Assembly: GCF_943181405.1 (NCBI RefSeq)
Contig: NZ_CALPBY010000006.1
Coordinates: forward strand, 365,043-429,042
Reading direction: 5' to 3'
DNA: 64,000 nucleotides
Source: Cellulosimicrobium sp. Marseille-Q4280
Lineage (GTDB): Bacteria; Actinomycetota; Actinomycetes; Actinomycetales; Cellulomonadaceae
In this document: in pieces, positions 47,739 through 57,514 of the stretch
Position numbering within the stretch: position 1 is the first letter of the stretch
Layout of the letters: every line of letters starts with the position of its first letter
Notes under the pieces: generated by a model
What the model saw: only the letters and a program-made list of their open reading frames with translations
The model's database searches: none
Told to the model about the DNA's origin: nothing
Made by a program: the position numbers and the translations under genes

Positions 47739-50700
47739 ATGACGCTCGACACCGTGCCGAGACCGGCACCCGCCCACCGAACGGCCCGGGACCGGGCGAC
47801 GCGGCTCGCCGGGGCGCTCGTCGCCGCCGGCCTGGTGACGACGGGCCTCGCGGTGCCGGCGTCGGCAGCCCCCGGCGGGGTGGCCGCGGGGACTCTCACC
47901 CGACCGGCACCCACCGCCGCGTGGCCGGCACCACGCGAGCTCGCGCTCGACGACGCGGGCGACGCCCTCGTCACCGACGTGGAGCAGCGGACGATCGCGC
48001 CGGGGCTCGAGCAGACGAGCTTCACGCGCCTCGGCCCGGACGGGTGGCTGAGCGGCGAGGTGCTCGTCGCCGAGCTCGGCTCGGACGACGTGCGCGTGGG
48101 GTACCTCGGCCCGGACGCGGTGGCCGGGAGCGCGACCGTCAGCGAGATGGCCGCGTCACGCGGCGCCGTCGCCGCGGTGAACGGCGACTTCTTCGACATC
48201 AACAGCTCCGGTGCGCCGCTGGGCACCGCCGTGGACGACGGCACCCTCCTGTCCTCGGCGGTGTCCGGTCGCGAGCGCTCCGCGGTCATCGGCTCCGACG
48301 GGCTCGGACGCCTGGCCGAGCTGTTCCTCGAGGGGAGCGTGAGCGTCGGTGCGGGGCAGACCGCGCACCCGGTCGCCGGCCTCAACGTCACGGCCGTCCA
48401 GGCGGGAGGGGTCGCCGTCTTCGACAGCGCGTGGGGTGCTCACACCCGCACGCGCGTCCTCGCGGCGGGGGAGCAGGGCGTCGAGGTGCTCGTGAGCCCC
48501 GACGGGACGGCGACCTCCGTCGGCACGCCCGGGAGCGGCCGGCTCGACGAGGGCGTGCGCGCCGTCGTCGCACGGCCGGGCGCGGCGGCGGACGCCCTCG
48601 CGACGGTCGCCCCCGGCGACCCGGTGACTCTCGAGTACGGCCTGCGCGCGGACGCGGGCGACGTCGCCGTCGCGGTCGGTGGCGACCAGGGCGACTGGCT
48701 CCTCGAGGACGGCGAGCCGACCTCCTGGGAGGGCGGGCACTCGCTGGTCCGGCACCCCCGCACGGCGATCGGCTTCAGCGAGGACGGCGCGACCGCCTAC
48801 CTCGTGGTCGTCGACGGGCGCCAGTCGCACAGCACCGGCATGACGCTGCCCGAGCTCGGCGAGCTCCTGGGCCAGCTCGGCGCCGACGACGCGATCAACC
48901 TCGACGGCGGCGGGTCGAGCCAGATGAACGCGCGCCTGCCCGGCGACGCGTCGACGACGGTCCTCAACTCCCCGGCCGACGGCACCGAGCGCCGCGACGC
49001 GAACGGTCTCGGACTGTTCGTCGCGGGCGGCTCGGGCGTCGCGAGCGCCTTCGCCGTGGCCCCGGCGCTCACGGCCGACGACGCCGACCGGGTGTTCCCC
49101 GGGCTGCACCGGACGCTGACCGCCAGGGCGTACGACGAGGTCGGGTCGCCCGTCGAGGCCGGGCCGTCCGCCTGGGCGAGCACCGACGACGCGGTCGCGG
49201 ACGCCACCGACGGCACGGTGACCGGCGTCGCACCGGGCACCGCCACCGTCACCGCCGTCGGTGGCCCCGACGGCACGGCGACCGGCAGCCAGGAGCTGCG
49301 GGTCCTCGGGCCGCTGGTCCGCGTGGCCGTCGACGAGCCGGTCGTCAGCCTCGCCGACGCCGGGTCGACCGCGACGCTCACCCTCACGGGGTACGACGCC
49401 GACGGGTACTCCGCCCCGATCGAGTCGCGCGACGTCGTCGTCAGCGGGGGAGAGGGCGTCGTCGCGCTCGAGCCGGGTACGTCCGGCACGTTCACGGTCC
49501 GCGGCACCGCGCCGTCGGGGGCCGCGACGCTCGACCTCGCCGTCGGGGAGCACCGGGCCCAGGTGGCGGTCGCCGTCTCCCTCGAGCAGGTTCCGGTGGC
49601 CGACTTCGCGGACGCCGCGACGTGGAAGGCCGCGAACGACCGTGCCCCCGGCGGCGGCGTCGCTCCCGCCGAGGGTCACGACGGCGCGCCCGGCCTGCGC
49701 CTCACCTACGACTTCACGCAGTCCACGGCGACGCGCGGCCAGTACGCCGTCGTCCCGGAGGCGACCCGCGAGATCGCGGGGCAGCCGCAGCGGCTGACGA
49801 TGTGGGTCGACGGCGACGCGAGCGGCGCGTGGCTGCGCCTGCAGGTCCAGCAGGGCAACGGTGTGACGACGCAGCTCGACGGGCCGAACGTCTCGTGGGA
49901 GGGCTGGCAGCAGGCCACCTTCGCCGTCCCCGCAGGCGTCGACTTCCCGCTGCGCCTGCAGCGCGTGCGCGTGCTCGAGACGCGCGCGTCCGCGCAGTAC
50001 GCGGGTGCGATGACGATCAGCGACCTGCGGGCGCACGTCCCGCCGGCCGTCGAGACGCCGCCGGCAGGCCGCGTCGAGGACGACGTCGTCGTCGCGGAGA
50101 ACGCCACCGACGCGTCCCCGCTCCGCGTCGCCGTGATGTCCGACGCGCAGTTCGTCGCACGGTCGCCGGAGTCGGGGGCGGTGGAGGGCGCGCGCCGCAC
50201 GCTCCGGGAGATCGTCGCGTCCCGGCCGGACGTGCTCGTCGTCAACGGCGACCTGGTCGACGAGGCGTCGCCCGCCGACTTCGACCTCGCGCGCGAGATC
50301 CTCGACGACGAGCTCGGCGGGACCGACCTGCCCTGGTACTACGTCCCCGGCAACCACGAGGTGATGGGCGGCTCGATCGACAACTTCGTCGACGAGTTCG
50401 GCGACACCACGCACCACCTCGACGTCGACGGCACACGCCTCGTGCTGCTCGACACCGCGGCCGGCACGCTCAACGCCGACCACGCCCAGCTCCGGATGCT
50501 GCGCGAGCAGCTCGACGCCGCGGTGACGGACGACGCGGTGACAGGCGTCGTCGTCGTGGCGCACCACCCCGTCGACGACCCGCTGCCCACGAAGGCGAGC
50601 CAGCTCGTCGACCGGCTCGAGGCGGACGTCGTGCGCGGCTGGCTCGAGGACTTCCGCGAGACGTCGGGCAAGTCGGTCGCGAGCGTCGGCTCGCACGTCG

Positions 50701-51785
50701 GCGTCTTCCACGCGAAGACCGAGGACGGCGTGCCGTACGTCGTCAACGGCAACTCCGGCAAGAGCCCCGCGAGCACGCCCGACGACGGTGGTTTCACGGG
50801 CTGGACGATGCTCGGGATCGACCCCGCACAGGGCCGGTGGTCCGATCCGTCCGGAGGGGTGCCCGAGGGACCGGGAGCCGGGTGGCTCGCCGTCGAGGTC
50901 AACGCTCGCGCGGACGCCGTGGAGGTCGCGGGTCCCGCCGAGCTGGCCGTCGGCGCGTCGGGTGCGGTGAGCGCGACCGTGAACCAGGACGACGACCGCG
51001 TGGTCCCGGTCGCCTGGCCCGTCTCGGCGGCCTGGGGCGGGACGGACGGCGTCTTCGTCGGTGCTGCGCAGGACGCGCCGCGCGGGACGGTGGTCGCGCT
51101 GGACCCGGTCTCCCACGAGGTCACGGCCGTCGCACCAGGACGGGCGACGCTGACGGTCGAGGTGAACGACGTCGTCGGGACGCTCGACGTGCTCGTCCCG
51201 GCCGGGAAGCCGGGGCAGGCGCGGATCGCCGACGACAACGGCTGGGACACGGGCCTGCGGGACGGCGACTACGCCGTCATGGTCGACCTGTGGTGGGGCG
51301 AGAACGCGACGACGCTGCGGCTGTACGAGGACGGCGAGCTGGTCAGCACGCAGCCGCTCGTCCACGGCGGCACGCGGGCGCAGCGGTTCGCCGTCCCGGT
51401 CACGGGCCGGACGAACGGTGCGTACACCTACACGTGCGAGCTCGAGAACGCCGTGGGGGTCACCCCGTGCGCCGGCGCGCACACCGTCCTGGTGGCGGAC
51501 GCGAACCCCGGCACGCCGGACCTGTCGCACGACAACCACGACCGCGACGGCGACTACACCGTCACGGTGAACAAGTGGTGGGGCACGCAGGCCACCGGGT
51601 ACGTGCTGTACGAGGGCGGGGTCGAGATCGACCGGCAGGAGCTCGTGCCGGGCGAGGGCGGGGCCGCGCAGGCGGCGTCGACCGTCCTCACGGGCAAGGC
51701 CCCCGGCCGCTACACCTACGTCGCCGTGCTGACCAACGCCGCGGGGGAGACACGGAGCAGGGAGGTCACCGTCACGGTGCGGTGA
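47739..51785 (+). CDS. Secreted phosphodiester glycosidase + metallophosphoesterase multidomain protein
   Basis: This 1348-residue exported protein starts at ATG 47739 behind CGGAGGA. A signal peptide (1-44, cleavage after ASA) is followed by a phosphodiester glycosidase (NAGPA-like) domain at about 130-430 with AAVNGDFFDINSSGAPLG and AINLDGGGSSQMNARL. A Big-2-like domain (440-525) and a beta-sandwich carbohydrate-binding-like region (620-770) lead to a calcineurin-like metallophosphoesterase at 797-1010: VMSDAQF, VVNGDLVDE, YVPGNHEVM, VVVAHHPVDD, GSHVGVFHA. Another Big-like domain and two C-terminal (GDYxVxVxxWWG)-type repeats end it. Family knowledge: NAGPA removes GlcNAc from phosphodiesters, leaving a phosphate. 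A joint role on sugar-phosphate polymers such as teichoic acid is inference. Confidence 0.9.
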   Translation: MTLDTVPRPAPAHRTARDRATRLAGALVAAGLVTTGLAVPASAAPGGVAAGTLTRPAPTAAWPAPRELALDDAGDALVTDVEQRTIAPGLEQTSFTRLGPDGWLSGEVLVAELGSDDVRVGYLGPDAVAGSATVSEMAASRGAVAAVNGDFFDINSSGAPLGTAVDDGTLLSSAVSGRERSAVIGSDGLGRLAELFLEGSVSVGAGQTAHPVAGLNVTAVQAGGVAVFDSAWGAHTRTRVLAAGEQGVEVLVSPDGTATSVGTPGSGRLDEGVRAVVARPGAAADALATVAPGDPVTLEYGLRADAGDVAVAVGGDQGDWLLEDGEPTSWEGGHSLVRHPRTAIGFSEDGATAYLVVVDGRQSHSTGMTLPELGELLGQLGADDAINLDGGGSSQMNARLPGDASTTVLNSPADGTERRDANGLGLFVAGGSGVASAFAVAPALTADDADRVFPGLHRTLTARAYDEVGSPVEAGPSAWASTDDAVADATDGTVTGVAPGTATVTAVGGPDGTATGSQELRVLGPLVRVAVDEPVVSLADAGSTATLTLTGYDADGYSAPIESRDVVVSGGEGVVALEPGTSGTFTVRGTAPSGAATLDLAVGEHRAQVAVAVSLEQVPVADFADAATWKAANDRAPGGGVAPAEGHDGAPGLRLTYDFTQSTATRGQYAVVPEATREIAGQPQRLTMWVDGDASGAWLRLQVQQGNGVTTQLDGPNVSWEGWQQATFAVPAGVDFPLRLQRVRVLETRASAQYAGAMTISDLRAHVPPAVETPPAGRVEDDVVVAENATDASPLRVAVMSDAQFVARSPESGAVEGARRTLREIVASRPDVLVVNGDLVDEASPADFDLAREILDDELGGTDLPWYYVPGNHEVMGGSIDNFVDEFGDTTHHLDVDGTRLVLLDTAAGTLNADHAQLRMLREQLDAAVTDDAVTGVVVVAHHPVDDPLPTKASQLVDRLEADVVRGWLEDFRETSGKSVASVGSHVGVFHAKTEDGVPYVVNGNSGKSPASTPDDGGFTGWTMLGIDPAQGRWSDPSGGVPEGPGAGWLAVEVNARADAVEVAGPAELAVGASGAVSATVNQDDDRVVPVAWPVSAAWGGTDGVFVGAAQDAPRGTVVALDPVSHEVTAVAPGRATLTVEVNDVVGTLDVLVPAGKPGQARIADDNGWDTGLRDGDYAVMVDLWWGENATTLRLYEDGELVSTQPLVHGGTRAQRFAVPVTGRTNGAYTYTCELENAVGVTPCAGAHTVLVADANPGTPDLSHDNHDRDGDYTVTVNKWWGTQATGYVLYEGGVEIDRQELVPGEGGAAQAASTVLTGKAPGRYTYVAVLTNAAGETRSREVTVTVR

Positions 51786-51843: not shown

Positions 51844-52386
51844 TCAGTGGAACGTGGTGGCGTAGTACGACTGCTGGTCGACCGTCTCGACGGTGACGTC
51901 CTGGTTGCGCTCGAGGTGGCGCCGGAGGTTGTCCGCGAAGCGCAGGGAGTCGTCGTTGAAGCGCGAGACGTCGTACGCGCACACCACGCGGTGCTCGGCG
52001 AGGTGCGCGACCAGGGCATCGATCATGTCCATGAACGTCCGCGTCGCGCGACGGCCCGGGTGGGCGAGCGTGAAGCCGATGTACCAGACGGCACCGCGCG
52101 CCGCGTGCTCGGGGTAGCGCGCGGCGAAGAACTCGGGGCTGACCCAGGGCACGGCAGCGAGGTCGGTCGCGAGCGTCGTCATGCCCACCGCCTCGCCCTG
52201 ACCGTCGTGCGCGAGGAGCTTCAGGACGCGCGGGTCCTCCATCTCCTCCACGAACTCCTCGTGGTGCAGCACGTGCCGCGCCGCGGCACGCGTCCGCAAC
52301 GGCTCGAACGCCTCGAGGTACAGGCGCCAGAACCGCTCCGCGACGTCGTCCGTGACCGTGGTCTCGAACGTCACGTCAGCGCGCAT
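51844..52386 (-). CDS. GNAT-superfamily N-acetyltransferase
   Basis: This 180-residue protein starts at ATG 52386 behind GGAGG, overlapping the arginine decarboxylase stop by 11 bp. The acetyltransferase core is suggested by the opening helix VAERFWRLYLEAFEPLRTRAAARH, the central strands VGMTTLATDLAAVPWVSPEFF, and the acetyl-CoA segment YIGFTLAHPGRRATRTFMDMIDALVAHL, in which HPGRRATRT takes the Q/RxxGxG/A position. No specific substrate is signalled. Because it follows an arginine decarboxylase, agmatine or another polyamine is a reasonable guess (inference). Third gene of the kinase-decarboxylase-acetyltransferase operon. Confidence 0.78.
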   Translation of the reverse strand: MRADVTFETTVTDDVAERFWRLYLEAFEPLRTRAAARHVLHHEEFVEEMEDPRVLKLLAHDGQGEAVGMTTLATDLAAVPWVSPEFFAARYPEHAARGAVWYIGFTLAHPGRRATRTFMDMIDALVAHLAEHRVVCAYDVSRFNDDSLRFADNLRRHLERNQDVTVETVDQQSYYATTFH

Positions 52387-52882
52387 CGCCGGCCTCCTCC
52401 CAGCCCGCCCGGCGGAACGTCGCCACGACGACGGCCGCCACCGGCAGCGTCTCGCAGGTGATGCCGACGAGGTGGCGACCGGCCTCGTGGTACGTCCCGC
52501 CGCGGGTGGCGGAGAGGTCCTCGAGGCTGTGCGTGAGGTCCGTCTCGACCTGCTCGTGCGACGGGCCCTCGTGCTCGACGAACAGCCCGGCGCCGCTCCC
52601 GTCGTCCCGCAGGGACCAGGCCACGCCTGCCCACGCCTCGTGCCCGGGGAGCTGCGCGTGGGCCTCCGCGTACACGCAGTACAGGGCGTCGCCGTGCGCT
52701 CCGACCAGCTGGTCGGCACCGGCGACCTCCAGCACCCGGCTGCCCGGCGGGACGACCGAGCTGAGACGCACGAGGTTGTAGTCGGCCACCCCGGCGGCCA
52801 TGAGCGCGGCGTCGAAGGCGGCCAGGGTGGTCCGGCCGGTACCGGCGCCGGAGCTCACACGGATGGTCAGTGCGTCGGTCAT
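52376..52882 (-). CDS. pdaD: Pyruvoyl-dependent arginine decarboxylase
   Basis: This 168-residue protein starts at ATG 52882, whose ATGA overlaps the kinase stop. It matches PvlArgDC: NLVRLSSVVPPGSRVLEV contains the Ser41-Ser42 pair where self-cleavage creates the pyruvoyl group. Further matches are GDALYCVYAEAHAQLPGHEAWAGVAWSL and the active-site glutamate in GLFVEHEGPSHEQVE. Family knowledge: the enzyme converts arginine to agmatine without PLP, as in archaea and chlamydiae, and acts as a trimer of alpha-beta units. It may serve polyamine synthesis, acid resistance or signalling. Coupling to a histidine kinase gene is unusual. Confidence 0.88.
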   Translation of the reverse strand: MTDALTIRVSSGAGTGRTTLAAFDAALMAAGVADYNLVRLSSVVPPGSRVLEVAGADQLVGAHGDALYCVYAEAHAQLPGHEAWAGVAWSLRDDGSGAGLFVEHEGPSHEQVETDLTHSLEDLSATRGGTYHEAGRHLVGITCETLPVAAVVVATFRRAGWEEAGDAR

Positions 52883-55845
52883 GGGGTCCTCTGGGTCGGG
52901 GCCGGGGGGACGTCGACGTGGACACGGGGCGTGAGCCCCGAGGCGGCGTCGAGAAGGTCGAGCACGGGCCGGAGGATGGTCTCCGGTGCGGCCCGACCCT
53001 TGGTCAGGAACACGGTGGGGCCCGGGCCGAGGTCGGCACGCTCGTCGGAGCCCAGCTCGGAGCCGCTGTACACGACGACGGGCAGCCGGCGGAGCCTGCC
53101 GTCCCGACGGAGCGCCGCGACGAGGTCCTTGCCCGTGCCGTCGGGCAGGGCGAGGTCGAGCACGATGAGGTCGGGGTCGTCCGCGCGGGTCAGGGCGTCC
53201 CGGGCCTCGGCGACCGACGCCACCTGCGTCACGACGAGCCCACCGCTCTCGAGGACGGTGGCGAGCACGGTGCGCAGGTCGTCGTCGTCCTCCACGACGA
53301 GGACGCGGCCGTGGTGGGGACGCAGCCTGATGACGTCGTGCACCGTCTGCGCGAGCCGGGCCGGGTCGACCGGCTTGACGAGCCAGCCGTCCGCGAGCAC
53401 TGCGACCTCGCGCGCCTCCGTCGGACGCGTCCCCGACACGACGACGACGGGCACGTCCGCGGTCGCGGCGGTGCGACGCAGCCGGCCGAGCACCTCGGTC
53501 CCGTCGGTGCCCGGCATGGCGAGGTCGAGGACGAGCGCGGCGGGGTGCTCCTCCTCGACGAGCGCGACCGCCTCGTCGCCGTCCGTCACCCCGACGACGT
53601 CGTACCCGCGCGCCTCGAGGACCTCGCGCAGGACGTCGACCACGTACGGGTCGTCGTCGACGACGACGACCCGCGGCGTCGGCAGCCCGAGGTCGTCTGC
53701 CGTGTCGCCCCGCATCGCACGACCGTCCGCCACCGTCCCCGAGCCCTCCGGGTCGGGGGGCCGGACCCGGGACGCCTGGCTCGCCACACGCGGGACGGTG
53801 AGACGAAAGCTGGAGCCCGTCCCCTCGCCGTCGCTCACGGCCCACATGCGACCGCTGTGACGCTCCACGATGCTGCGCGCGATCGCGAGGCCCAGCCCGG
53901 TCCCTCCGCGCTCCCGGGCGTCAGAGGCGTCGACCTGCTCGAACCGACGGAACACGGTCTCCAGCTTGTCCGGCGGGATGCCACGCCCCTCGTCGTCGAC
54001 GCGCAGCTCGACCATCTCGCCGACCGCGACCGAGGACACGCGGACCGTCCCGCCGCCGGGGGAGAACTTCACCGCGTTGCTGAGGAGGTTCGTCAGGGTC
54101 TGGACGATGCGCTCCCCGTCGGCGTGCACCACCTCCGGCCCCGTGCCGGAGGTGTCGAGGAGGACACCCGCGTCGTGCGCGAGGATCGTGACCTGCTCGA
54201 CCGCGGCGGCGACGAGCTCGTCCACCGGGTGGTCCGCCAGCTCGAGCGACGTCGTCCCGGCGTCCATGCGCTCGACGTCGAGGATGTCGTCGACGAGCCG
54301 GTTGAGGCGCTCGCTGCTGGCGAGGGCGATGTGGACCATGCGTGACGCCTGTGCCGGGTCCCCGTCGAGGATGCCGCTCTCGAGCAGGCCGAGCGCGCCG
54401 CGGATGGACGTGAGGGGCGTACGGAGCTCGTGGCTGACGACCGAGACGAACTCGTCCTTGATGCGTTCGACCTCGCGTCGCTCCGCGACGTCGCGGAAGA
54501 CGACCACCGCGCCCCGGATCGTCCCGTCGTCGCGCAGCGGGCTGGCGGTCACCTCGACCGGGACGTCCTTGCCGTCCAGGCGGCGGTACACGTCCAGCTC
54601 AGCCGTGGCCGTGACGCCGTCACGCACGGCCTCCGTGATGTAGCAGCGCTCGACCGGGTACGCCGTGCCGTCCTCGGCAGGTGCGTGGAACGTCGTGTGG
54701 GCCTCGCGCCCCACGAGGTCCGCGGCCGACGCCCCGAGCGTGCGTGCTCCGGCGGCGTTGACGAACGTGACCCGGCCGGACGCGTCGACGCCGTAGATGC
54801 CGTCCGCGACCGACTCGAGCGTGCGCTCGCGCTCGCTCGCGAGCGAGCGAAGCTGCGCCGTGCGCTCCTCCACGCGTCGCTCGAGCCCGTGCCGGAGCGA
54901 CTCGTTGTCCACGACCACGAGGATCTGGCGCGCGACCACGGCCACGAGCACCGCGACCCACAGGACGTTGGCGATCGCCGGGATCGTGTCGTCCGCCTGG
55001 GCGACGCGGACGAGCGCCGCGGCGAGGAAGAGGAGGAAGGTCACTGCCGTGCCGAGGACGGCCGAACCCTCGGCGCGCCGGTCGGCGACCGGGCTTCCCG
55101 ACGCCGCGGGATGCCGTGCGGCGAGGGCGATGGCGAGGTAGCCGCCCACCCATGCCACGTCGACGGGGCTGCCGAACGCGAACTCGCCGCCCGCAGAGAG
55201 GAGGGCGAACGCGACGTCCGCGACGGCGTAGAGGACGAAGCCGCTGCCCACGAGCACCAACGGCACGCGCTCGGACGCGCTCGAACGGGTCATGACGAGC
55301 ACGGCGAGGGTGGCGAGCAGCGCGTCGACGACCGGGAGGGCGTACGCCGTGACGGAGGGCGCGGTCCGCCACGACTCGCCCTCGAGCACGACCGCGAACA
55401 CCGCGATGTAGAGGACCGACCCGCCCACGACCACGCTGTCGAACAGCATGCGGACGATCTCCTGCCCGCGGGGGCGCACCGTCGGGAACAGCGCGAGGCC
55501 GACGATCCCCAGGCAGAGGGCTGCGATGTAGGCGACGTCCCCGGTCGTCGGGTCGCCGACGACCGCCGCGTAGACGTTGCCGAGCAGACCCACCACGCCG
55601 CCGAGGGAGAGGAGGCCCCAGGCCCGGCGTCGGCGTCCCGTCGACCGCGACGCGCGCCAGCCGCAGCTCACTGCGGCGACCACCCCGGCCGCGGCGATCG
55701 AGGCGCGGGAGATCTCCTCGCGCACCGCCTGGTCGAGCGGGCTGGCGAGCAGCACCACGAGGCCGAGCACCCCGACGCCCGCCACCCAGGACCAGCGGAC
55801 GAAGCTCTCCCAGGCTCGCGCCGCCGCGCGCTGCCCCTCCTGCAT
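52879..55845 (-). CDS. Hybrid sensor histidine kinase with two C-terminal receiver domains
   Basis: This 988-residue protein starts at ATG 55845, six bases after TACGCT (leaderless type). Residues about 20-330 carry nine or ten transmembrane helices forming a membrane sensor, with no large periplasmic loop. A short coiled coil leads to a PAS domain (about 345-450; ESVADGIYGVDASGRVTFVNAAG in part). Then come HisKA with SVVSHELRTPLTSIRG (His about 472) and HATPase with NLLSNAVKFSPGGG, DDEGRGIPPDKLETVF, GGTGLGLAIARSIVE. REC1 (about 722-835) has VVVVDDDPYVV, LVLDLAMPGTDG, LVKPVDP. REC2 (845-960) has VLVVEDDDDLR and LIVLDLALPDG. Family knowledge: hybrid kinases feed Hpt proteins. A stand-alone Hpt and REC lie divergent. 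Translationally coupled to the arginine decarboxylase. Confidence 0.93.
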   Translation of the reverse strand: MQEGQRAAARAWESFVRWSWVAGVGVLGLVVLLASPLDQAVREEISRASIAAAGVVAAVSCGWRASRSTGRRRRAWGLLSLGGVVGLLGNVYAAVVGDPTTGDVAYIAALCLGIVGLALFPTVRPRGQEIVRMLFDSVVVGGSVLYIAVFAVVLEGESWRTAPSVTAYALPVVDALLATLAVLVMTRSSASERVPLVLVGSGFVLYAVADVAFALLSAGGEFAFGSPVDVAWVGGYLAIALAARHPAASGSPVADRRAEGSAVLGTAVTFLLFLAAALVRVAQADDTIPAIANVLWVAVLVAVVARQILVVVDNESLRHGLERRVEERTAQLRSLASERERTLESVADGIYGVDASGRVTFVNAAGARTLGASAADLVGREAHTTFHAPAEDGTAYPVERCYITEAVRDGVTATAELDVYRRLDGKDVPVEVTASPLRDDGTIRGAVVVFRDVAERREVERIKDEFVSVVSHELRTPLTSIRGALGLLESGILDGDPAQASRMVHIALASSERLNRLVDDILDVERMDAGTTSLELADHPVDELVAAAVEQVTILAHDAGVLLDTSGTGPEVVHADGERIVQTLTNLLSNAVKFSPGGGTVRVSSVAVGEMVELRVDDEGRGIPPDKLETVFRRFEQVDASDARERGGTGLGLAIARSIVERHSGRMWAVSDGEGTGSSFRLTVPRVASQASRVRPPDPEGSGTVADGRAMRGDTADDLGLPTPRVVVVDDDPYVVDVLREVLEARGYDVVGVTDGDEAVALVEEEHPAALVLDLAMPGTDGTEVLGRLRRTAATADVPVVVVSGTRPTEAREVAVLADGWLVKPVDPARLAQTVHDVIRLRPHHGRVLVVEDDDDLRTVLATVLESGGLVVTQVASVAEARDALTRADDPDLIVLDLALPDGTGKDLVAALRRDGRLRRLPVVVYSGSELGSDERADLGPGPTVFLTKGRAAPETILRPVLDLLDAASGLTPRVHVDVPPAPTQRTP

Positions 55846-55851
55846 GCGACG

Positions 55852-55857
55852 AGCGTA
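55852..55857 (-). promoter_or_regulatory. Leaderless-type -10 for the hybrid kinase operon
   Basis: On the minus strand TACGCT is followed by six bases (CGTCGC) and ATG 55845. The divergent receiver gene starts about 100 bp to the right. Confidence 0.5.
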
Positions 55858-55954
55858 GGTGAAGGGTGACGTGCTCGCCGTCCGGCGGCGACCGGCGCCG
55901 CGCTGGGTTACGGTCGATCGGGCGGCGACGAGCGAGCGGACGGGGACGGCACAG

Positions 55955-56341
55955 GTGGTAGCAGGGGGCCGACGCGTGGTGGTCATCGACGACGACGCGT
56001 CCATCCGCGAGGTCGCGGCGCTCGCGCTCACCGCGGTCGGCGGGCACGAGGTGCACACCGCCGGCGACGGTGCGGAGGGGATGGCGGTCGCGCGCGAGGT
56101 CCGCCCGGACGTGATCCTCCTCGACGTGATGATGCCGACGGTCGACGGCCCGGCGGTGCTCGCCCGGATTCGGGCGGACGACCGGCTGCGCGACGTGCCG
56201 GTCGTGTTCCTCACGGCGAAGGTCGGCACGCAGGACATCTCCCGGCTCGACGGGCTCGGCGCAGCGGCCGTCCTCACGAAGCCGTTCGATCCCCTGACCC
56301 TTCCCGACCGGCTCGCCGAGGTCCTCGGGTGGGCGCGTTGA
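55955..56341 (+). CDS. Stand-alone response-regulator receiver domain protein
   Basis: A single REC domain of 128 residues is read from GTG 55955; the frame is open to GTG 55859 but the extra part lacks domain features. Motifs: VVVIDDDASIREVAALAL (acidic pair), phosphoacceptor Asp in VILLDVMMPTVDG, Thr in VVFLTAKVG and Lys in VLTKPFDPL. There is no output domain, so it acts by protein contact or phosphate transfer, CheY/Spo0F-like. It overlaps the Hpt gene by 13 bp and is divergent from the hybrid kinase; a shared phosphorelay is likely. Confidence 0.92.
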   Translation: MVAGGRRVVVIDDDASIREVAALALTAVGGHEVHTAGDGAEGMAVAREVRPDVILLDVMMPTVDGPAVLARIRADDRLRDVPVVFLTAKVGTQDISRLDGLGAAAVLTKPFDPLTLPDRLAEVLGWAR

Positions 56342-56667
56342 CGCCTGGCGACCGGCCCGACCCCGCCCCGGGGTTCGACGACGCGCTCGCCCTGCTCTCC
56401 GACCGCGCCCGGCAGCGCAACGCCGCGCGCGCGGCCCGGCTGCTCGAGCTGCTCGACGCGGGAGGGGCCCCGGAACCCGGCGCCCGCGCCGAGGCCGTGC
56501 AGCTCTGCCACGCGCTCGCGGGCTCGGCCGGGACGTTCGGCGACGAGGCGCTCACGGACGCCGCCCGGCACCTGGAGGACGTGCTCCGCGCGGAGGACGA
56601 CTCCCGGACACCCGACGCCCTGGAGCGCCTGCGCAGGGCCGCCCGGCCCGGTGGCGCGGGAAACTGA
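56329..56667 (+). CDS. Hpt (histidine phosphotransfer) domain protein
   Basis: This 112-residue protein starts at GTG 56329 behind GAGG and overlaps the receiver gene. It is helical, with the Hpt signature QLCHALAGSAGTFGDEALTDAARHLEDVL: the phospho-accepting His at about residue 68 within H-x-L-x-G-S-A-G-T-F-G. Family knowledge: Hpt domains pass phosphate between receivers; stand-alone ones connect hybrid kinases with distant regulators. Its location next to a receiver and a hybrid kinase argues for a four-step relay. Confidence 0.9.
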   Translation: MGALTPGDRPDPAPGFDDALALLSDRARQRNAARAARLLELLDAGGAPEPGARAEAVQLCHALAGSAGTFGDEALTDAARHLEDVLRAEDDSRTPDALERLRRAARPGGAGN

Positions 56668-56776
56668 GCAAATCCTGAGCATCCGTTGGGCTTCGGGGCG
56701 CAGGTCCTTGAGGTAGCTCGGGGAGCGTGGGTCCTGCCTCGGGGGACCGCCCCGACGGTCCACGAGGGGGAGACTC

Positions 56777-57079
56777 ATGTTCCACACCAGCACGCACCCG
56801 GCCCCAGCGCTCGACGGGCGCCCCGGCGACGAGACCGGCGCCGTCCGGCCGCAGGTCCCGACGCCGACCTACCTGTCGTCGGGCCCGCGCCCGACGGTCG
56901 ACGCCGCGATGGCGGCGCTCAGCGACGTGCTCGAGCGGACGCTCCAGGAGGACCTCGCACAGGGGATGGTCCCGACCGTCGAGCACCTTGCGGTCGACGT
57001 CGTGACCGAGGACCGGCACGTCGGGGGCTCCCACGTCGCCGTCGCTCTCGTCCTTCTGTCCTTCCGCCGCGCGGCCTGA
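56777..57079 (+). CDS. Conserved-looking 100-residue orphan protein of the phosphorelay locus
   Basis: The frame starts at ATG 56777 behind GAGGGGGAG and reads MFHTSTHPAPALDG. The first 40 residues are Pro/Thr-rich and probably disordered. From 40 to 98 lies an amphipathic helix (TVDAAMAALSDVLERTLQEDLAQG) and strands (VEHLAVDVVTEDRHVGG, HVAVALVLLSFRRAA). No family recognised. A good ribosome binding site and codon use support a real gene. Its place between the Hpt and the HTH genes suggests a link to the relay (inference). Confidence 0.72.
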   Translation: MFHTSTHPAPALDGRPGDETGAVRPQVPTPTYLSSGPRPTVDAAMAALSDVLERTLQEDLAQGMVPTVEHLAVDVVTEDRHVGGSHVAVALVLLSFRRAA

Positions 57080-57130
57080 CCTGCGACGACGCATGTCGGC
57101 GGCCCTGCGCGGCCGCCCTGGGAGAGACCT

Positions 57131-57180
57131 CAGGACGAACGTCCTGAACGAAGGGTGAAAACACGCGTCATGAACATGAC
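57131..57180. promoter_or_regulatory. Two AA-centred inverted repeats upstream of the LuxR-type HTH gene
   Basis: CAGGACG-AA-CGTCCTG (57131-57146) and GTCATG-AA-CATGAC (57167-57180) are both perfect inverted repeats with an AA centre, 35 bp apart. They lie 80-130 bp before ATG 57260. Candidate autoregulatory sites for the HTH protein. Confidence 0.45.
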
Positions 57181-57259
57181 CTTCGCCCGTCTCTTCCAGT
57201 AGCACCACACCGGATCCGTCAGGGGTGTTGGCGTGACCGGAAAAAATCTGGAGGAGAAC

Positions 57260-57514
57260 ATGAGCACCATCGAGCTGGTCCGCCCGTCGGCGTTCCCGCT
57301 GGCTGCCTCGCCGCAGCCCATCGCACCGCTGACCCGCCGCGAGCGCGTCGTCCTGTCGAACCTGTCCGAGGACGTGACCCTCGAGCAGATCGCCACCAAG
57401 CTCTTCGTCACCCGCAACACCGTCAAGTCGCAGGTGCGCAGCCTCTACCGCAAGCTCGGCGTCTCGACGCGTGCGGAGGCCGTGGCCTGGGCCCGCGCCG
57501 CCGGCCTGCGCTGA
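57260..57514 (+). CDS. LuxR-type helix-turn-helix protein (DNA-binding domain only)
   Basis: This 84-residue protein starts at ATG 57260 behind GGAGGAG. Residues about 25-84 are a GerE/LuxR HTH: PLTRRERVVLSNLSEDVTLEQIATKLFVTRNTVKSQVRSLYRKLGVSTRAEAV, read in parts (L-T-x-R-E, T-x-x-x-I-A-x-x-L, S/T-x-x-T-V-K). There is no sensor or receiver domain, so it works with a partner or is controlled by its own level. In the phosphorelay locus, it may be the output regulator acting with the stand-alone receiver (inference). Confidence 0.9.
   Translation: MSTIELVRPSAFPLAASPQPIAPLTRRERVVLSNLSEDVTLEQIATKLFVTRNTVKSQVRSLYRKLGVSTRAEAVAWARAAGLR

Follow-up and report, generated by a model that had tools for sequence, protein, structure and literature searches.

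The kinase-PvlArgDC-F1 locus

The window (the whole stretch of DNA analysed, 64,000 nucleotides from Cellulosimicrobium sp. Marseille-Q4280) carries at 51844..57514 seven open reading frames (ORFs) in two divergent groups, all at the coordinates that an earlier sequence-only reading had given. The minus strand group is composed of three genes: a hybrid histidine kinase of 988 amino acids (52879..55845), a 168 amino acid pyruvoyl-dependent arginine decarboxylase (PvlArgDC, 52376..52882) and a 180 amino acid, remotely GNAT-like protein of a family without a name, here called F1 (51844..52386). This locus appears to belong to a so far undescribed regulatory module, in which F1, PvlArgDC and the sensor very probably act together. 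Judging from gene order and domain content, the module seems to be built around a core of F1 and a membrane sensor that has multiple transmembrane (TM) segments and an interchangeable output, either a kinase relay or a cyclic di-GMP (c-di-GMP) enzyme; PvlArgDC would be a frequent third partner, a precursor enzyme added in many lineages.

The kinase and PvlArgDC genes share an ATGA start/stop overlap at 52879..52882 of the minus strand, evident from the ORF coordinates, and the two receivers previously assigned to the kinase were found by Pfam. The PvlArgDC and F1 genes overlap by 11 bases (52376-52386); this overlap with what had been called a GNAT gene is real, whereas direct family searches do not establish the GNAT label, for which profile comparison gives a remote likeness. 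The domain order of the kinase by Pfam is membrane domain (residues about 1-320), PAS, HisKA, HATPase_c, REC1 and REC2. Its N-terminal part has eight hydrophobic segments on a simple scale, and no Pfam model covers the membrane domain. On the opposite strand are found a lone REC (55955..56341; 82.3 bits against PF00072), whose start is probably 55955 rather than the longest-ORF start at 55859, a choice made by inference among the start candidates, and a lone Hpt (56329..56667; 31.9 bits against PF01627, cut-off 24.6). The phospho-acceptors are present in kinase H472 (HisKA), D774 (REC1) and D897 (REC2), in D89 of the lone REC (numbered from 55859) and in H61 of the Hpt, so that the parts of a multi-step relay are at hand, as had been proposed. 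A role in anti-phage defence was rejected, PADLOC matches covering only the receiver and ATPase parts of the kinase.

The decarboxylase scores 94.1 bits against PF01862 (cut-off 22.7), and its N36, S41-S42 and E103 align with the solved PvlArgDC chains 1n2m and 2qqd and do not vary in any of the 17 rows aligned. In the solved enzymes the Ser is the cleavage site, and the Asn and Glu are catalytic; S42 (codon 52757-52759) is the predicted pyruvoyl serine. The assignment to PvlArgDC, already made in the sequence-only reading, is sound at family and residue level. Because the protein falls under the equivalog cut-off of NCBIfam TIGR00286 (70.8 against 106.95 bits), arginine is its likely rather than certain substrate, and agmatine the predicted product. 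Family searches of the window genome gave no match to PF00491 (agmatinase/arginase) or PF04371 (agmatine deiminase); among the 15 genomes searched PF00491 is present in eight and PF04371 in two. An ordinary polyamine operon was rejected, the neighbourhood being unfit and the downstream families having no match in the window genome. The archaeal PvlArgDC polyamine pathway (Graham et al. 2002) shares with the window the PF01862 enzyme and its conserved Ser, Asn and Glu positions and differs in that the window PvlArgDC is linked to F1 and sensors; a Chloroflexi locus (L103), by contrast, has an arginase-family gene and a methyltransferase 3' of PvlArgDC. No fusion of kinase and PvlArgDC was noticed: L017 and L018 have both in different frames, and the remaining loci were not inspected individually. 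In one genome (G166, L031/L033) PvlArgDC is broken across two frames, with kinase and F1 still present.

Conservation of the locus

PF01862 is patchily distributed. It was found in 11 of 59 genomes in a draw of relatives, the window included, in five of 17 of the genus, in 14 of 396 genomes drawn from the order and in 20 of 396 drawn from the phylum (19 over the cut-off). Kinase, PvlArgDC and F1 occur together in all 11 PvlArgDC genomes of the relatives, window included, and in 12 of the 14 of the order draw, the two samples having four genomes in common (G000, G029, G036, G047). G084 and G126 have no kinase or F1 in the 1.5 kb flanks of PvlArgDC, and their F1 lies on another contig.

The named loci come from a scan with the PvlArgDC alignment, of which the best 80 of 111 were kept, many close relatives among them. 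Gene calling was rough: in the window the kinase was called too long and REC and Hpt were missed, and in the loci F1 was omitted in L195-L197, L199, L207 and L212 and genes were merged in some others. For this reason the counts by distance for F1, sensor, kinase and GGDEF are based on profile searches of stop-to-stop frames, with profiles built largely from the proteins they find, those of the sensor domain included, and such counts show position and not independent homology. Of the 80 named PvlArgDC loci, 61 contain F1 (with partial matches in L119 and L130), those of Saccharibacteria among them, and 38 have F1 together with a kinase bearing the window-type membrane domain; these 38 belong to Promicromonosporaceae, Serinibacter, Propionibacteriaceae, Nocardioides and metagenome-assembled genomes (MAGs). 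The tie between a histidine kinase and PvlArgDC proposed earlier therefore holds well beyond close relatives. A receiver domain adjoins the operon in 37 of the 38 kinase-type loci (exception L086) and an Hpt in 20, and in six (L057, L059, L079, L087, L107, L127) the kinase has no visible receiver of its own.

Fifty of the 61 F1 loci have a member of the sensor-domain family within 3 kb, and six more a kinase within 2.6 kb. In twelve of the 61 (Nocardia, Antrihabitans, Acidimicrobiia and others) there is a GGDEF protein bearing a related membrane domain; Pfam finds GGDEF in 11 of these, L120 being recognised by profile, and EAL also in eight. The five F1 loci without a close sensor are L089, L090 (GGDEF at 4.8 kb), L095 (short contig), L110 and L121. 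Of the loci that lack F1, 19 in all, L102, L118 and L132 carry the membrane domain and have GGDEF-EAL close by, and a further six have some kinase within 5.4 kb.

The wider arrangement is local. The LuxR-type helix-turn-helix (HTH) gene, the gene of the 100 amino acid protein and the NUDIX gene that follows recur in only five named loci (L074-L077, L081), all of Cellulosimicrobium/Oerskovia. A unit of seven genes, as first conceived, was therefore rejected; the triad is kept beyond close relatives. One of the five, L076 (contig of L008, genome G011), is named Sphaerisporangium cinnabarinum ATCC 31213, is of the same genus as the Cellulosimicrobium genomes and is perhaps misnamed.

F1 loci without PvlArgDC

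Of the 396 order genomes, 32 have an F1 match, a weak and partial one in the case of G181; the 14 PvlArgDC genomes are all among them. Eighteen neighbourhoods without PvlArgDC alongside were fetched, from 16 of the 18 genomes having no PvlArgDC match (G067 and G181 were left out) and from two with PvlArgDC elsewhere. In every one of the 18, F1 has a GGDEF domain no more than 1.6 kb away. By blastp, 17 of these GGDEF neighbours match best to the TM-GGDEF-EAL protein from L099 or L114, and the four scanned by Pfam all have GGDEF and EAL. From the GGDEF matches in three such genomes (67, 37 and 80 in 5.0, 3.8 and 8.1 Mb) chance adjacency is estimated at about 4-5% per genome, and kinship reduces the independent cases among the 18 loci to about three families. 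In L202 (5947-7146) two tandem F1 genes adjoin one TM-GGDEF-EAL-type protein. In the 4.86 Mb of the window genome only one GGDEF match was obtained (E 4.4e-16), the kinase form thus being found in a genome nearly without c-di-GMP synthases.

These loci bear on the reading of the locus as a stress or polyamine operon, in which the kinase would sense acid, arginine or the envelope, PvlArgDC would use a proton in making agmatine, and F1 would acetylate agmatine for storage, detoxification or export. The overlapping genes suit a two-step pathway of this kind, and the Virgisporangium locus L110 has an amino acid permease with a C-terminal GNAT domain two genes away. N-acetylation of agmatine is moreover a real enzyme reaction, described for the Drosophila agmatine N-acetyltransferase in PMC5647378; that insect enzyme is likened to F1 by the type of reaction proposed. 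However, a stress operon leaves F1 beside a related sensor domain in loci without PvlArgDC unexplained, and the window genome, in which transporters elsewhere were not searched for, has no agmatinase/arginase or deiminase family match; this reading is unlikely. From the original suggestion of agmatine acetylation in a stress module the GNAT-like partner remains, but the suggestion is one of several readings, and the window F1 lacks the acetyl-CoA-binding glycines.

Membrane domains of the kinase and of the GGDEF proteins

Homology of the membrane domains was addressed independently of the position counts by profile search, by profile-profile comparison and by comparison of single sequences. 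The profile of the kinase membrane domain (window and 38 loci) found 25 of the 33 F2 proteins, taken as GGDEF neighbours, at E <0.05 against four of 24 control GGDEF proteins. The controls are the best-scoring GGDEF loci of five genomes and hence non-random; of the 25 taken, L225 was dropped, being the F1 neighbour of L098, and 22 of the remaining 24, those with the GGDEF motif beyond residue 240, entered the two comparisons that follow. In profile-profile comparison the kinase profile scored 98.1% with the order-level GGDEF-EAL set (E 1.2e-13, 284 columns), 95.8% with the Nocardia/Antrihabitans set and 96.7% with the Acidimicrobiia set, in a test which tilts toward the neighbours, entered as alignments, and away from the controls, entered as single sequences. 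With single sequences on both sides, at least 20% was reached by 24 of 31 GGDEF proteins neighbouring F1 or PvlArgDC (16 of them at least 80%) and by one of 22 controls; the first F2 genes of L118 and L130, not the true neighbours and without match, were excluded here (33 to 31). Going by these comparisons, the membrane domain of the kinase is related to that of the GGDEF proteins neighbouring F1 or PvlArgDC.

It could be argued that membrane domains like that of the sensor are common in actinobacteria and that the neighbourhoods arose by operon drift without shared function. Related domains do occur in control GGDEF proteins, the GGDEF-type profile giving 97% with L218 and 92% with L226, both of genome G168, and 0.5% or less with the other 20, and many of the relatives are close kin. 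Drift would, however, have to have placed GGDEF beside F1 in 18 of 18 order-level loci of three families, to have produced more cases in Nocardia, Acidimicrobiia and Propionibacteriaceae, and to have set a kinase beside F1-PvlArgDC in another phylum; we regard it as very improbable.

Variant loci

In two loci without F1 (L102, L132) a FeeM-type N-acyl amino acid synthase (PF21926) adjoins PvlArgDC, with a TM-GGDEF-EAL protein nearby, and in a third (L118) a GNAT-type gene takes this position, with a GGDEF-EAL protein nearby. L102 (7359-10309) carries, besides the FeeM-type synthase and PvlArgDC, a fatty acid desaturase and a TM-PAS-GGDEF-EAL protein; in L132 (1-7539) a kinase, a response regulator and an ABC-ATPase-like gene were also seen by eye. 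Both F1-bearing Virgisporangium loci, L110 (7369-13558) and L121 (7375-14039), have a penicillin amidase family protein 3' of F1-PvlArgDC; the penicillin amidase family includes acyl-homoserine-lactone acylases. A further convergent gene is present in both, which in L110 is the permease mentioned above.

Outside the actinobacteria, six Saccharibacteria/Patescibacteria F1 loci have a kinase within 2.6 kb, and HisKA_7TM was found in three of the four Saccharibacteria-type kinases scanned (L092, L094, L108; not L096). A profile of 12 actinobacterial F1 rows matches the Saccharibacteria proteins of L094 (E 2.9e-20) and L092 (E 1.8e-18), so this link is independent of the inclusion of Saccharibacteria rows. 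The eight Saccharibacteria loci are L092-L097, L100 and L108, L095 and L096 being labelled only bacterium. Six of them have an F1 relative, L094 with two F1-like domains. Two receivers adjoin PvlArgDC in L093-L097 and L108 and one in L100 (contig end), with none close in L092, and some of these loci have an LPG_synthase_C-family protein.

The F1 family

No family of Pfam or NCBIfam matches F1 over its cut-off, the sole Pfam match of the window copy being DUF6197, under the cut-off. Among 39 F1 relatives, Pfam gave Acetyltransf_1 in three (best E 0.0005) and Acetyltransf_9 in four (best E 0.075). By hhalign the 39-row F1 alignment scored 81% against 19 GNATs of the window genome, drawn from its 48 PF00583 matches, and 0.2-0.6% against five unrelated families, and on this profile evidence F1 may be called remotely GNAT-like. 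The GNAT acetyl-CoA-binding motif is R/QxxGxG/A, and some F1 relatives retain the glycine after its arginine (alignment by eye). FeeM (PF21926) and the acyl-homoserine-lactone synthases (PF00765) are N-acyl amide makers of the GNAT superfamily. Against two FeeM-type proteins F1 scored 50% with 39 rows and 2% with the 12 actinobacterial rows. The identification of F1 as an acyl-homoserine-lactone synthase was rejected, none of the 39 members matching PF00765 and hhalign giving 19 and 35%. Neither F1 nor its alignment gave a convincing match when searched by sequence against solved structures, and a search of plasmids found no F1 copy at E 0.001.

A quick F1 tree was built from 61 rows, without 17 close Promicromonosporaceae rows, L119 and L130. 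On it the three output types require 3 changes (minimum 2; shuffled mean 22.6), and whether a locus has PvlArgDC requires 2. Supports are moderate overall and the Saccharibacteria rows have long branches. Nocardia, with GGDEF, lies inside the kinase group with supports of 81-89, and because these fall under the 95 mark a repeated swapping of the sensor output is likely and not proven.

F1 could also be a protein partner of the sensor, serving as an adaptor or acetylating the sensor or its target, with the agmatine of PvlArgDC as an intracellular cue for F1 or the sensor and no diffusible signal. Such a role is possible, and would fit with F1 pairing with the sensor where PvlArgDC is absent from the locus, with its being the most conserved member of the triad in nine of ten relatives (exception L010) and with the degenerate CoA-binding motif of the window copy. 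Against it stand the hints of amide chemistry in the variant loci: the FeeM-type synthases of L102 and L132, the desaturase of L102 and the penicillin amidase of Virgisporangium.

Interpretation

What the sequence itself shows is the order of the genes and how far it is conserved, the relatedness of the sensor domains and the differing outputs; the remaining mechanism we infer. We prefer, as unproven and with a probability of roughly 0.35, the reading that the cue of the sensor is a self-made small signal, an agmatine-derived acyl amide. PvlArgDC would turn arginine into agmatine, F1 would acylate agmatine, or another amine where PvlArgDC is missing, and the resulting signal would be received by the neighbouring sensor through its membrane domain. 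In the window the kinase would pass it on to an output by way of its own receivers and of the lone Hpt and REC, and elsewhere the related membrane domain would drive GGDEF or GGDEF-EAL enzymes. A signal made by F1 is suggested because PvlArgDC would supply the amine, because FeeM-type synthases stand in two loci without F1, with a desaturase in one, and because of the Virgisporangium penicillin amidase genes and the analogy to known pairs of synthase and kinase. An adaptor role of F1 is nearly as likely as such a signal. More tentative is the full form of the proposal, a modular N-acyl-amine signalling (N-acyl-agmatine with PvlArgDC) in which F1 would be the maker and the multi-TM domain the receptor, with kinase or GGDEF/GGDEF-EAL outputs and a parallel HisKA_7TM version in Saccharibacteria.

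The quorum sensing systems CqsA/CqsS and LqsA/LqsS-LqsR likewise place the gene of an enzyme next to those of a multi-TM sensor kinase and a receiver, as found in the window. They differ in that the operon partners of the window kinase are PvlArgDC and the GNAT-like F1, with no synthase of the CqsA/LqsA type, and in the GGDEF and GGDEF-EAL outputs of the F1 module in other lineages; the signal proposed here is only a putative one. With FeeM and the acyl-homoserine-lactone synthases the likeness lies in the FeeM-type proteins adjoining PvlArgDC in L102 and L132, and the difference in F1 being only remotely similar to either.

A number of observations weigh against the signal reading and the core it builds on. 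PvlArgDC has no match in 18 of the 32 F1 genomes of the order draw, and agmatine therefore cannot be the general substrate of F1. In Klenkia (L089/L090) and Virgisporangium (L110/L121) F1-PvlArgDC occurs without such a sensor within 4.7 kb. The relatedness of the membrane domains is uneven: at E 1e-4 in a larger search the kinase-type profile alone found only L112, L115, L120, L132 and L210 among the GGDEF loci, the lone matching control, L218, reached 89.5%, and seven of the 31 neighbours stayed under 20%, namely L114, L198 and five whose PvlArgDC loci are in Acidimicrobiia-type MAGs (L102, L118, L124, L128, L130). For F1 itself, the 12 actinobacterial rows gave only 20% with the own-genome GNATs, the unrelated controls covering the 39-row version only; ten acyl-homoserine-lactone synthases gave 19% (39 rows) and 35% (12 actinobacterial rows), and F99, two GNAT-type proteins from PvlArgDC loci, 2%. 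The GNAT acetyl-CoA-binding glycines are absent from the window F1 (alignment by eye), and an arginase-family match is found in four genomes of the window's genus. The chief objection to the signal reading is that many genomes have F1 but no PvlArgDC; beside it stand the remote likeness to GNATs and the glycines lacking in the window copy.

In searches of open-access papers, with subscription journals mostly outside their reach, no description of an association of kinase, PvlArgDC and F1 was found, which agrees with the initial statement that no described system couples a histidine kinase to PvlArgDC. Decarboxylase evolution is treated in PMC8503589, in passages which do not concern such a locus. 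If the signal reading is true, the locus would represent a self-made actinobacterial signal system with a receptor domain shared by phosphorelay and c-di-GMP outputs, and would give a testable role to the F1 family and the membrane domain, both without a name. If only the module holds, the pairing of PvlArgDC and kinase is a conserved genomic association which offers predictions for many hypothetical proteins.

Neighbouring genes

Downstream of the Hpt on the plus strand are found the 100 amino acid protein (56777..57079) and the LuxR-type HTH (57260..57514; 84 amino acids from the chosen start, 49.5 bits against GerE). Present in the window and in five named loci, both are probably neighbours and not part of the core. 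Pfam matches to the lone REC, the lone Hpt and the HTH, and searches of Pfam and NCBIfam without match for the 100 amino acid protein, bear out how these four had been described. On the other side of the triad, at 47739-51785 on the plus strand, the window encodes a 1348 amino acid protein with phosphodiester glycosidase (NAGPA) and calcineurin-like phosphoesterase domains.

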